Source: Lebetimonas sp. JH292
Lineage (GTDB): Bacteria; Campylobacterota; Campylobacteria; Campylobacterales; Nautiliaceae
Direction of reading: 5' to 3'
NCBI RefSeq assembly: GCF_000523275.1
Contig: NZ_ATHQ01000001.1
Span: forward strand, 567,001 to 631,000
Length of the DNA: 64,000 bases
The first letter of the stretch is position 1, and each line of letters opens with the position of its first letter. Made by a program: the position numbers and the translations under genes. Of this stretch, positions 4,250-47,460 are shown piece after piece. The notes under the pieces are model-generated. The model ran no database searches and was not told where the DNA came from. It saw only the letters and a list, made by a program, of their open reading frames with translations.

Positions 4250-4291
4250 TATTTTTCACTACTCACAACTTACCACTCACTATTCACTAAA
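4250..4291 (-). repeat. Short ACTCACN-type repeat tract between waaA and yggU
   Basis: On the plus strand the tract reads as imperfect 7-mers ACTCACA / ACTTACC / ACTCACT / ATTCACT. In the sense of the flanking minus-strand genes these are GTGAGT-like units directly downstream of the waaA stop (4296). It belongs to the dispersed family listed in the findings. Confidence 0.75.
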
Positions 4292-4295
4292 TAAA

Positions 4296-5464
4296 TTATC
4301 CATTTTCAATTATTTCAATTATTTTATCTAAATCTACTCTGTTTTTTATTTTTGTTGGTTTTGCAGTTTTTATTTTCTCATTTATTTCATCAACTCCGCA
4401 AATTTCAATATTTTCAACTTCATTATATAACGCTGTTTGGTTAAAATAATATTTACCGCTGATTATAGGTTTATTAAAATAAGCAGCCTCAATCGGATTA
4501 TGCCCTCCCACATTGTCAACAAAGCTTCCCCCTAAAATTACAATATCGGCAACTTGATATAAATTAATCAGCTCTCCCATCTTATTAATTAAAATCAAAT
4601 CTTCATTCAAATTAACTTTTCATTTTTCATTATCCATTTTCCATTTTCCATTAAAAATTTTTCGCTTAATCGTTCCATTTTCCCATACTTTTTCATAATA
4701 TTATATACTTCGTCAAATCTTTCCGGATGTCTTGGTACCACAGCAACCTGAAATTTATTTAAATCAAGCTCCGACAAAATCAGCTCTTCTTCGTTTTTGT
4801 GCGTTGAAGCCAAAATAATCAAAGGCTTTTTTTTAATAAACTCGGTTGTAATTTTTGGATTAAAATATGTCTTTATATTTCCTGTAACTTTTATATTTTT
4901 TGCCCCTAAGTTCAAAAGCCTTTTTTTATCCTCCTCGCTTTGTGCCAAAACAATATCAATATTTTCAAAAATTTTTTTATAAAACCATTTAAATTTAAGA
5001 TACTTGGGATAACTTTTTTCACTAATTCTGGCATTTAGTAAAACCGTCTTATTACATCTTCTTTTTGCAAGATAAAAAAACATATACCATAATTCGGCTT
5101 CCATTACCACTAAAGTTTTACAAGGTTTTAGCCAAAAAGGTAAAAAAATCTCAAACGGCAAAAATCTGAGATGAACATTTTTATATCTTTTTGCTTCGGC
5201 ATAACCCGTATTGGTTATTACACTTAAATTAACTTCATCAAACTGCTCAATAAGCGGTTTTAATGCTTTTGTTTCACCAAGGGAACATGCATGGAAATAA
5301 TATAGTTTTTTTGTAAAAGGAGGATTGTTTATCAGAAAAAATCTGGAGGGGATAGATTTTTTGTATTTTTTTTTAAAGCTGAGATAAATTAAAAAAGGAA
5401 TTGAAATTAAATATAAAATAAAAAGAAAAAAAAGATAAAAAAAATTAAATATTACATTTTTCAC
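4296..5464 (-). pseudogene. waaA: 3-deoxy-D-manno-octulosonic acid transferase WaaA (KdtA), split in two frames
   Basis: WaaA adds Kdo to lipid A precursor at the inner membrane. The N-terminal part (4607-5464, 285 codons) has a membrane anchor (residues ~3-28), the HACSLGE motif with the catalytic Glu, and the Rossmann region ending PRHPERFDEV. It then runs into a tail MENGKWIMKNEKLI and stops. The C-terminal part (4296-4610, TTG-initiated in another frame) holds the rest of the donor-binding domain: MGELINLYQVADIVILGGSF, GGHNPIEAAYF. Together ~389 residues, a normal WaaA length. The tail is encoded by a repeat-like tract (4617-4652) at the break. The two ORFs overlap by 2 bases (TTGA), so re-initiation could still give two half-proteins. 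Kdo transferase is normally essential, so either the halves work together, another copy exists, or the base is wrong. Confidence 0.8.
4617..4652 (-). repeat. Repeat-like ATGGAAA tract inside waaA
   Basis: In the minus-strand sense it reads ATGGAAA / ATGGAAA / ATGGATA / ATGAAAA / ATGAAAA, five 7-base units. It sits exactly where the WaaA frame is lost and has no counterpart in WaaA proteins as I know them. The same kind of AATGGAAAAT wording occurs near 63925 and in the phosphatase tail near 41290. Confidence 0.65.
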
Positions 5465-5507
5465 TACTCACAACTCACTACTCACTACTTTCACTGTTTT
5501 CACTTTC
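5459..5507 (-). repeat. Repeat tract joining flgZ and waaA
   Basis: In the minus-strand sense: nine-base units GAAAACAGT and GAAAGTAGT inside the flgZ frame, the stop TAG, then seven-base units GAGTAGT, GAGTAGT, GAGTTGT, GAGTAGT up to the waaA ATG at 5464. Confidence 0.8.
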
Positions 5508-6206
5508 TTCAACAAACAACACTCTTCCGCAATGAGGACAGGTTACTATTTCTTCACCTTTAATCACTTCTGTATAAACTTTATCGCTGATTTTCATATT
5601 ACAACCGCTGCATGCCTGTTTTCTGACAGGAGTTACAGCAGTTATACCCGCCCATCTCTTAATTTTTTCATAAAATCTGTAAATTTGAGGATTCATTTCA
5701 TTTATAAGTTTTTCTTTTTTCTTATAAATTGCTTCTTTTTGTTTTTTTACTGTTTCCAGTTTTTTTTCAACATCAACACTCAAAACAGTGATTTCAGAAT
5801 CTATTTTTTCAATCTCTTTTTTTATATTTTCTTTTTCTTCATTTTTAAGTTCAAGCTGTTTTTCAAATTTTGCAATTTCTTCGTTTGCCGCTTCAATTTG
5901 TTCACGTGCCAGTTCCTCTTCTATTTGAAGTGCTTTAAATTCTTTTTCTGTTTTTGCTTTACTCTGTTTTTCTTCTATAGAAATAAGTTTATCTTTAAGC
6001 TCTTTTATTAATAATTCGTTTTTACTTTTTTTTAGTTTAATATTTCTAATCTCTTCTTCAAGTTTTTCGAGTCTCTCTTCAAGAGCTTTTTTCTGGTTTT
6101 CAAATTTGGTTACAGGAGCTTTAATATTAATCTCAACAGGTTCGAGTTCTTTCAATTTCCTTTCATATCCGTTGAGTTCTATTAACTCTTTTAAAAATTT
6201 ATTCAT
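5478..6206 (-). CDS. flgZ: FlgZ-like coiled-coil zinc-ribbon protein (HP0958 family)
   Basis: 242 residues: a long coiled coil (residues ~10-170, rich in K/E/L) followed by a C4 zinc ribbon (CSGC near residue 198, CPHC near residue 222). This is the layout of Helicobacter HP0958 (FlgZ), which stabilises the flagellar sigma factor RpoN and binds flagellin mRNA. The neighbours (waaA downstream, Nif3-like and glyQ upstream) match HP0957-HP0960 and Cj0704-Cj0707 as I recall them. The last nine residues, ESENSESSE, are encoded by the repeat tract and are probably an add-on. The window's sigma-54 promoters give it a plausible target set. A TATAAT box lies upstream. Confidence 0.82.
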   Translation of the reverse strand: MNKFLKELIELNGYERKLKELEPVEINIKAPVTKFENQKKALEERLEKLEEEIRNIKLKKSKNELLIKELKDKLISIEEKQSKAKTEKEFKALQIEEELAREQIEAANEEIAKFEKQLELKNEEKENIKKEIEKIDSEITVLSVDVEKKLETVKKQKEAIYKKKEKLINEMNPQIYRFYEKIKRWAGITAVTPVRKQACSGCNMKISDKVYTEVIKGEEIVTCPHCGRVLFVEESENSESSE

Positions 6207-6949: not shown

Positions 6950-6957
6950 ATATTACC

Positions 6958-7006
6958 TTTCACTATTCACTACTTTCACTACTTTCACCATTTTCACTCT
7001 CCACAT
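6958..7006 (-). repeat. Repeat tract forming the glyQ 3' end
   Basis: In the minus-strand sense: GAAAATGGT, GAAAGTAGT, GAAAGTAGT (nine-base units in frame with glyQ), then GAATAGT GAAAGG up to the next gene's start region. The stop TAG at 6963-6965 lies inside the tract. Confidence 0.78.
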
Positions 7007-21576: not shown

Positions 21577-21611
21577 CCTACTCACTACTCACCATTCACA
21601 ATTCACTTTTA
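21577..21611 (-). repeat. ACTCACN repeat tract downstream of tyrA
   Basis: Plus strand: ACTCACT ACTCACC ATTCACA ATTCACT. In tyrA sense this is GTGAGT-like units starting 7 bases after the tyrA stop. It separates convergent thiE-like and tyrA genes. Confidence 0.75.
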
Positions 21612-31454: not shown

Positions 31455-31474
31455 TAATACAAAAAGGAAAAACA

Positions 31475-32937
31475 ATGGGCTTTTTGGAAAGATTTTCGGA
31501 AATATTTAACACAAAAAAACAAGATTTTATTGCAAAAAAATTTATAGGCTCAAATGAAGAAGACGGAGAAATCGGAGAAATTATCAACCCTTATCTCAAA
31601 CAGGTAACTACAAAATATATTAAATGCACCCCTGAAGATGCAAAAAGAGCCCTTGAAACCGCCAAAAATGCTTTTGATAAAACAAAAAATTCCTCTTTGG
31701 CACAAAGAATCGCCTGGATTGAAGATGTTGCTAAAAAATTAGAAGAGCAAAAAGAAGAATTTGCTAAATATATAACACTTGAAGTTGCAAAACCGATTTC
31801 GCAGGCAAAGGTGGAAGTAACCAGGTGCATTGAAAATTTAAAAATAACTGCAGCTGCTGCTTATGATATTGTAGGCGAAACAATTCCCACAGATGCAACT
31901 TTTAGCGGTGCTAAAACAACCAGTTTTTACAAAAGAGTCCCGCTTGGGGTGGTAGTTGCGATAACACCATTTAATTTTCCTCTTAATCTTGTAGCCCACA
32001 AAATTGCCCCTGCCCTCATCTCCGGAAACAGTGTGGTATTAAAACCGACTCCGGAAGCACCTTATACAGCCTATGCATTTGCAAAACTTTTTATTGAAAG
32101 TAAATATGCAATTAAAGATGCCTTAAGTGTAGTTTACGGAGATGCCGAAGTTGGAAATACATTAGTAAAAGCCCTATTCCAAGAAAAATCAGCTTTACAG
32201 GAAGCGTTCCTGTCGGAAAAATAATTACACAAAATGCCGGAATCAAAAAAATAACACTTGAACTCGGCGGAAACGCAGCAACATTTGTAGAAAATTCGGC
32301 TGACATTGAATTGGCGGCAAAAAGATGTGCAATAGGGGCTTTTGCAAACTCAGGACAGGTATGTATTTCACTTCAGAGAATTTATGTAGATAGTAAAATT
32401 TATGAAGAGTTTGCAGCGAAACTTGGAGAAGAAGCAACTAAACTAAAAGTTGGAAACCCATTTGAAGAAGATACTTTTATGGGGCCATTAATTAATGAAG
32501 ATGCTGCAATCAGGGCTGAGAGATGGATAAATTCTGCAGTTAAAGAAGGGGCGAGAATAATTTCCGGAGGAAAAAGAGAGGGGAACATTTTGACTCCTAC
32601 CATTTTAGCGGATGTAACGGATGATATGAATATAATCTGCGAAGAAGTGTTTGCCCCAATTGTCAGTTTAGTAAAAGTCAAAAGTTATGAAGAAGCTTTA
32701 AATAAAATAAACAACTCACCTTATGGGCTTCAATATTCAATGTTTACCAACAGAATAGATTTGATGCAAAAAGCAATTGATGATTTTGAAGCAGGCGGTA
32801 TAATAATTAATGATATTCCGACACTTAGATTTGACATCCAGCCTTACGGAGGGGTTAAACTCTCAGGCATTGGAAGGGAAGGACCTAAATTTGCAATTGA
32901 GGATATGACAGAAATTAAAACAGTAATAATTAGATAA
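31475..32937 (+). pseudogene. NAD(P)-dependent aldehyde dehydrogenase, frameshifted
   Basis: Frame 1 (31475-32224) encodes the N-terminal NAD domain to GDAEVGNTLVK, with ITPFNFPLNLVAHKIAPAL near residue 160 and SVVLKPTPEAP. The protein then continues in the +1 frame from about 32170: SPIPRKISFTGSVPVGKIIT, LELGGNAATFVEN with the catalytic Glu, GAFANSGQVCISLQRIYVDS with the catalytic Cys, and EEVFAPIVSLVKVKSYEEAL. One extra A in the A4 run at 32167-32170 would restore one ~487-residue enzyme, a normal length. It resembles lactaldehyde / non-phosphorylating glyceraldehyde-3-phosphate dehydrogenases. It could be a true mutation or a base-calling error; both halves are otherwise well preserved. 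Confidence 0.85.
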
Positions 32938-33027
32938 ATGTTAAATGCTAAATTATTATTTTAATTAAACATTAGGCATTATTCTTTCACCACTCACTAC
33001 TCACCACTCACTACTCACTACTCACTT
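32938..33027. repeat. Two-part repeat tract between aldehyde dehydrogenase and recO
   Basis: First part (32939-32981): AATGTTAAATGCTAAATT and its inverse AATTAAACATTAGGCATT, a hairpin-forming AT-rich pair just after the plus-strand stop. Second part (32986-33026): ACTCACT/ACTCACC units, at least six, in the orientation that gives GTGAGT in recO sense directly after the recO stop (33030). Confidence 0.8.
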
Positions 33028-46802: not shown

Positions 46803-47460
46803 ATGAAAAAACTTATTTTACTAATTATTTCATTAAAAATTTTCGCTAATTGTATTATAGGAATCACCGGTGGATATAAAGAAATCTTTAAACCTTTAAT
46901 AAAACAATACAATTTAACACACAAAGAAAAAATAACTGTAATTTACGGCCCTCTGGGAACGCTTATTGCAAATGCCAAACTTAAAAACATTTCTATGATA
47001 TTCGGAGAAAAAGAAACATTAAAACAAAACGGTTTTAATTCTTTTATTCCTATTGGTAAAGACAACTTAACAATTATTTGCAGAAAAAAAAACAAATTTA
47101 GACGATTTAAATCAAACAAAAATTGCAGTTCCTAATCCAAAAGGAACTATTTATGGCAACAGGGCAGAAGAATTTTTTAAAAATATTCATATTCATCCTA
47201 TAAATGAATTAACAGTATCAATGATGCCTCAGGGAATTAATTATTTACAGATGAATATAGTAGAGTGTGCAGTCGCAAATGAGGTAATGGCACTATTTTT
47301 AAAAAACAAATATTCATATATTGAAATAAAAAAGAATTATACACCTATAATTTTAGGTTTTTCATCAATAAAAAAAAGTAAAACGTGTGTTGATTTTATT
47401 AAATTTTTAAAATCTGAAAAAATAAAAAAATATTTAAAAAGCAGGGGGATATGCATTTAA
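46803..47460 (+). pseudogene. modA: Molybdate/tungstate ABC transporter binding protein ModA-like, frameshifted
   Basis: Frame 1 (46803-47135) gives a signal peptide (residues 1-16) and the start of a periplasmic binding protein: IGITGGYKEIFKPLIKQYN, VIYGPLGTLIANAKLKNISM, GKDNLTIICRKKNK. The protein continues in another frame from ~47093 (NLDDLNQTKIAVPNPKGTIY-like run, YGNRAEEFFKN, MMPQGINYLQMNIVECAVAN, KSEKIKKYLKSRGICI). The break is at the A9 run 47084-47092. A one-base change in that run would restore a ~220-residue ModA. The ModE-like operator and modB next door support the role. Slippage, real mutation or base-calling error cannot be told apart. Confidence 0.78.

Follow-up and report, generated by a model that had tools for sequence, protein, structure and literature searches.

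The assembly holds no continuous reading frame for the Kdo transferase WaaA. The gene is given as two ORFs whose frames differ, and five 7-bp repeats lie in the loop that bears the junction. The repeat tract belongs to a family of heptads, pattern RTGRRWA, whose arrays are dispersed and strand-directional. In our reading, a natural heptad array and, separately, a small indel, most likely an assembly error, jointly explain the state of waaA (probability roughly 0.6). A dispersed RTGRRWA array occupies a length-tolerant loop of WaaA and is translated as extra amino acids, a small indel on top of the array (the loop has 20 nt more than that of the congener, G001) would throw the gene out of frame, most likely only in the assembly, and the living cell would most likely make one continuous WaaA with a longer loop.

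The window, i.e., the whole stretch of DNA that was analysed (64,000 nucleotides), was compared with the rest of its source genome (G000) and with loci from related genomes (L numbers). The first-pass annotation had described waaA as split into an N-terminal and a C-terminal ORF, and this was borne out by the NCBIfam profile NF004389 (lipid IVA Kdo transferase), which the N ORF matches at positions 1-289 of 402 (338.8 bits) and the C ORF at positions 293-399 of 402 (116.5 bits). Neither ORF singly reaches the cut-off of 363 bits, and jointly the two cover the length of the profile. The features of the region are:

4256-4289, minus strand: degenerate heptad array in the interval between waaA and a DUF167 gene
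4296-4610, minus strand: C-terminal ORF of waaA (104 aa, TTG start; conserved GGHNP motif present)
4590-4714, minus strand: variable loop lying between RHPERF and the DLIL strand, 125 nt
4607-4610, minus strand: TTGA overlap of the N-ORF stop TGA (4607-4609) and the C-ORF start TTG (4608-4610)
4607-5464, minus strand: N-terminal ORF of waaA (285 aa, GTG start; PF04413 match, 6.9e-40)
4617-4651, minus strand: five exact RTGRRWA heptads in the order ATGGAAA ATGGAAA ATGGATA ATGAAAA ATGAAAA
5458-5485, minus strand: heptad array GTGAGTA GTGAGTT GTGAGTA GTGAAAA at the start of waaA

The GTG start codon of the N ORF is itself part of the last unit of the array at 5458-5485, and the last residues of this ORF, MENGKWIMKNEKLI, are encoded by heptads and the bases directly after them. 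The overlap of the two ORFs as TTGA, reported in the first pass, was found at 4607-4610, and the five ATGGAAA-like 7-mers are likewise present, but the frame is not lost exactly within them as had been claimed: the N frame runs through all five and stops 10 nt past them (stop codon counted). The suggestion of a lost gene with a backup did not hold, as no second waaA was found in the whole genome (1.64 Mb, 5 contigs), in which each half has one match only. The lack of another copy and the stop-start overlap would both suit a natural split enzyme, in which translation would stop and restart at TTGA to give two polypeptides that combine into an active enzyme; however, the C ORF starts with TTG, and the Shine-Dalgarno sequence upstream of it is weak (best 3 of 6 to AGGAGG, a score equalled at 2 of 8 other starts inspected).

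The waaA loop in relatives

Among 20 relatives from the same family (L002-L020 and L028), an in-frame run of four to five heptads was found in the loop after RHPERF in six and was absent in 14 (a heptad being counted at six or more of 7 positions of the looser pattern RTGRRNA; the loop of L026 was not placed, and that of L028 is cut short, with runs elsewhere in the L028 gene of 3 at most). None of the 20 has a 4-heptad run elsewhere in waaA, and in the six heptad-bearing relatives such runs arise in no more than 0.35% of 2000 codon-shuffled versions of the loop. The units are of GTGAAAA types in L002, L004, L009 and L011, GTGGAGA in L003 and ATGGAAA in L010. Because six of the 20 relatives have in-frame heptads in the same loop, heptads need not break waaA. 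The cause implied by the first-pass annotation, namely a frame broken by the repeat tract, is accordingly unsupported, since the very observation named there as speaking against it (the tract in frame in relatives) was largely made; what differs between relatives is the number of units and the units themselves. The idea that the gene broke when the tract was inserted was rejected on the same grounds.

Loop heptads have likely been gained or lost repeatedly, as judged from a tree built without the loop, because the heptad label needs 5 changes on it (at least 2 forced by well-supported branches) and shows no more clustering than chance would give (85 of 500 shuffles were equally low). In an AlphaFold model of one relative (L033; mean pLDDT 92.0, 35 sequences), the heptad-coded residues (~265-276 by our own count) form part of the stretch that links helix 245-256 to strand 281-283 and fall in two ten-residue blocks at pLDDT 84. 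The NF004389 family profile matches the solved chain 2xci (E 9.1e-32); we take 2xci/2xcu to be the WaaA relative from Aquifex, and the region bearing the junction is presumably the C-terminal domain of the GT-B fold. The waaA loop appears to be a length-tolerant connection and a recurrent heptad site in several lineages, and a cut at this place would, according to the model, divide the C-terminal half of the fold between the two chains. For a split enzyme, this is favorable in that the junction lies within a loop that tolerates changes in length, but unfavorable in that the cut falls inside the C-terminal half of the fold and not at its start. A natural split is also at odds with the frames of the N and C matches, which are one and the same at 77 of the 77 loci compared (L002-L078; the comparison concerns the frames of the two matches, not each codon between them, some contigs were fetched twice, L031-L041 partly repeat L003-L020, L079 has no C part, and L080-L085 are outside the comparison). 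A stop (TAG) inside the waaA match occurs in one of 40 relatives (G034).

The loop measures 125 nt in the window. Among the six heptad-bearing relatives it measures 105 nt in five, G001 included, and 114 nt in L003, so that the window has 20 nt more than the five and 11 nt more than L003. Counted from a common upstream landmark, the window shows eight heptad-spaced units, after which the conserved downstream sequence arrives one base early, and the loops of G001 and L010 show five heptad units (by eye). The 20-nt difference comes to three heptads, by themselves harmless to the frame, less one base. The frame break is unexplained by heptad number alone because 20 is no multiple of 7, and this cause was rejected.

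The same lengths bear on a phase-variable contingency gene, in which slippage in heptad number would toggle WaaA on and off, 7 being no multiple of 3. Five 7-bp units within a coding region and the strong difference in arrays between the two species of the genus would fit such a gene, but the loops differ by 20 nt (five relatives) or 11 nt (the sixth) and not by whole heptads, so that the length steps of whole repeat units that mark a contingency locus were not seen between relatives. Furthermore, there are few units, some of which differ from one another, and an essential enzyme is an unlikely target; we consider phase variation improbable. Programmed frameshifting or transcriptional slippage that joins the two frames is less credible still: the junction is A/T-rich, but no X XXY YYZ slippery site was seen (by eye) before the N-frame stop, the runs near that stop reach at most 5 A or 5 T, and the relatives need no such device.

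Dispersed RTGRRWA arrays in the genome

Exact overlapping matches to the 21-mer pattern number 59 in G000 (1 for the reversed pattern) and 57 in G001 (0 for the reversed pattern), and at least one match is present in 21 of the 41 genomes searched. Elsewhere, the reversed-pattern control gave 9 vs. 78 in G011, 6 vs. 152 in G023 and 4 vs. 2 in G031. Long perfect arrays of GTGAGAA and GTGGGTA were observed in G023, which belongs to another family of the order (e.g., G023:C1 341324-341470). In the window, the 21-mer pattern has 5 matches, 3 of them overlapping in the waaA loop, vs. none in 100 dinucleotide shuffles, and there are 9 arrays, with none for the reversed pattern and none in 20 first-order Markov resamples. 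The 30 loci listed for the source genome reduce to 21 separate arrays; some sit where an ORF starts or ends, others entirely within an ORF.

Over 183 kb, 22 arrays of G000 were placed against G001: the counterpart shares the unit in 1, has other units in 10 (a run of two units being enough to count; four of these are only that long, and two lie on one G001 array) and shows none above the threshold in 11, where "none" may mean a decayed array (e.g., at one aminotransferase site). In the reverse direction, 12 arrays of G001 gave 2 with a shared unit, 5 with other units, 4 with none and 1 that was unplaced. The arrays turn over faster than their surroundings, since units differ or are absent while the aligned flanks of the window arrays are 78-84% identical to G001.

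Several arrays are translated as part of neighboring proteins. The array at 6957-6998 encodes the C-terminal tail of the glycyl-tRNA synthetase alpha chain, which in G001 has a different, shorter end, and that at 5461-5511 encodes the C-terminal tail SENSESSE of a zinc-ribbon protein (named by eye). A gene for a DegT-family aminotransferase (G000:C1:640059-641312, L160) contains two arrays of ATGGAAA in frame, which are translated as MENGKWK; the corresponding interval in G001 is equal at one site and 15 nt shorter at the other. In place of two arrays (21578-21607 and 32984-33026), G001 has other DNA, about 1 kb at the first and 5.5 kb at the second, and on this account places where genes come and go may be marked by heptad arrays.

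Frame breaks in the assembly and constraint on waaA

Across the same length (183 kb), 14 of 143 ORFs intact in G001 were flagged as broken in G000, compared with 4 of 146 the other way (one-sided Fisher p 0.012; non-overlapping ORFs with a minimum of 100 aa, matches with 60% identity or more). Read by eye, the 14 comprise 9 two- or three-frame breaks, 1 decayed gene, 1 ambiguous case and 3 without a break, and the 4 opposite cases are single stops within the first ~24 aligned residues, which were taken as start extensions; on this by-eye reading, two- or three-frame breaks amount to 9 of 143 vs. 0 of 146 (p 0.0016). The nine genes encode:

DnaE; a 252-aa protein without an NCBIfam match; a fumarylacetoacetate hydrolase family protein
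a GGDEF-EAL protein; a flagellar hook or rod protein; an aldehyde dehydrogenase
a solute-binding protein; a NeuB family protein; WaaA

The breaks follow no single error signature because they are of mixed kinds, and homopolymer error as the sole signature is unsupported for the same reason. In the aldehyde dehydrogenase gene (31457-32934, two frames), an A-run near 32170 is one A short compared to G001, and the solute-binding protein gene (46842-47454, two frames) breaks near an A-run at about 47085; others are small indels that do not fall in long runs, and dnaE lacks about 20 nt of sequence that G001 has.

The gene dnaE (DNA polymerase III alpha; G000:C1:469815-473172, L166, also L172 and L173) lies in two frames, and no second dnaE was found in the genome. 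It is one match without stops in G001 and in 10 other family relatives, with a TAA inside the match in G012. A stop-start overlap at the dnaE junction was considered and proved wrong, the second piece having its first start codon ~30 nt downstream of where the first piece ends. A sole replicative polymerase is essential, and a cell with a broken dnaE is hardly viable. If the dnaE split is not an assembly error, the polymerase would work in two pieces, which would be remarkable. Since a broken sole replicative polymerase could hardly be survived, the excess of frame breaks observed over G001 is probably at least partly error.

We infer that the waaA break belongs to this excess and is most likely a sequence or assembly error. 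Of the three readings offered in the first pass (a natural split enzyme, a lost gene with a backup and a sequence error), the last is the best supported, because eight other genes that are whole in G001 are broken here (by our own count), among them the only dnaE. Against it stand rpoB and rpoC, which together exceed 8 kb and are unbroken, the lack of a single signature, and a TTGA overlap like that of a coupled pair. The split enzyme is the less probable for the eight other broken genes (in our own reading), dnaE included, and although strong constraint on both halves would agree with it, we hold it to be unlikely; should WaaA naturally consist of two chains coupled at TTGA, then the two-frame dnaE would be a second essential enzyme in two pieces, a combination that strikes us as rather far-fetched. 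The split of waaA is probably not biology.

The ratio pN/pS relative to G001 is 0.197 for the N half and 0.137 for the C half, which places both under purifying selection. Relaxed selection in the C half was not seen against G001; against other relatives, the C-half value lies below that of the N half in some cases and above it in others. As both halves are similarly constrained, the break is recent, tolerated or unreal. Kdo transfer is usually essential. The genome contains kdsB and a gene like that of heptosyltransferase I (waaC-like, below the family cut-off with 152.7 vs. 185.3 bits), and judging by these two genes a Kdo transferase is probably needed by the cell. Several heptosyltransferase-like fragments in short frames were observed at G000:C1:740410-743917 (L159), perhaps further broken genes. 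A real, recent frameshift that inactivated waaA in the sequenced culture, with a compensating change or a mixed population, would be consistent with the unrelaxed C half if the mutation were very young; we doubt it, given the usual essentiality of Kdo transfer and the presence of kdsB and the waaC-like gene.

Known enzymes and heptad repeats

Compared to WaaA/KdtA as known from NF004389 and 2xci/2xcu, the two halves resemble it in matching consecutive parts of the profile, and differ in that the G000 assembly has two ORFs in place of one and a loop 20 nt longer than in G001. No plain report of a split waaA was found in the literature searched, mostly at listing level, nor one of the RTGRRWA array family in the parts covered of the literature on heptamer or short-tandem repeats and on repeats of Lebetimonas genomes. 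Claims of split genes call for the frame-break rate of the whole assembly to be checked. The RTGRRWA repeats lie largely at gene boundaries and sometimes in frame in enzyme loops, and at the corresponding site the sister species mostly has another unit or no unit; the family thus offers a case for the origin and turnover of heptads.

This kind of repeat is already known from other bacteria (PMC4679880, PMC4692102). Heptameric repeats of GGGAATC and GGGGA(C/T)T in Xanthomonas and Nostoc are likewise dispersed and vary extensively between close species (PMC4692102), but they are G-rich and quadruplex-forming, whereas RTGRRWA is richer in A/T; the same paper quotes a heptanucleotide GTGATTA in Helicobacter pylori. 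TAACTGA heptamer arrays were described from Beggiatoaceae, Cyanobacteria and Bacteroidetes (MacGregor 2015, PMC4679880); in the main genome of that study, most are intergenic or close to starts, some lie within ORFs or overlap with them, and their author considers that an insertion might split one protein into two functional ones. The RTGRRWA arrays share with them the dispersed arrangement of 7-bp units and are, as a general family, many, far above chance and strand-directional. The unit here is RTGRRWA, however, and not TAACTGA: the latter is a single fixed heptamer, whereas RTGRRWA is degenerate, with a unit variant that mostly differs between the matching sites of the two species.
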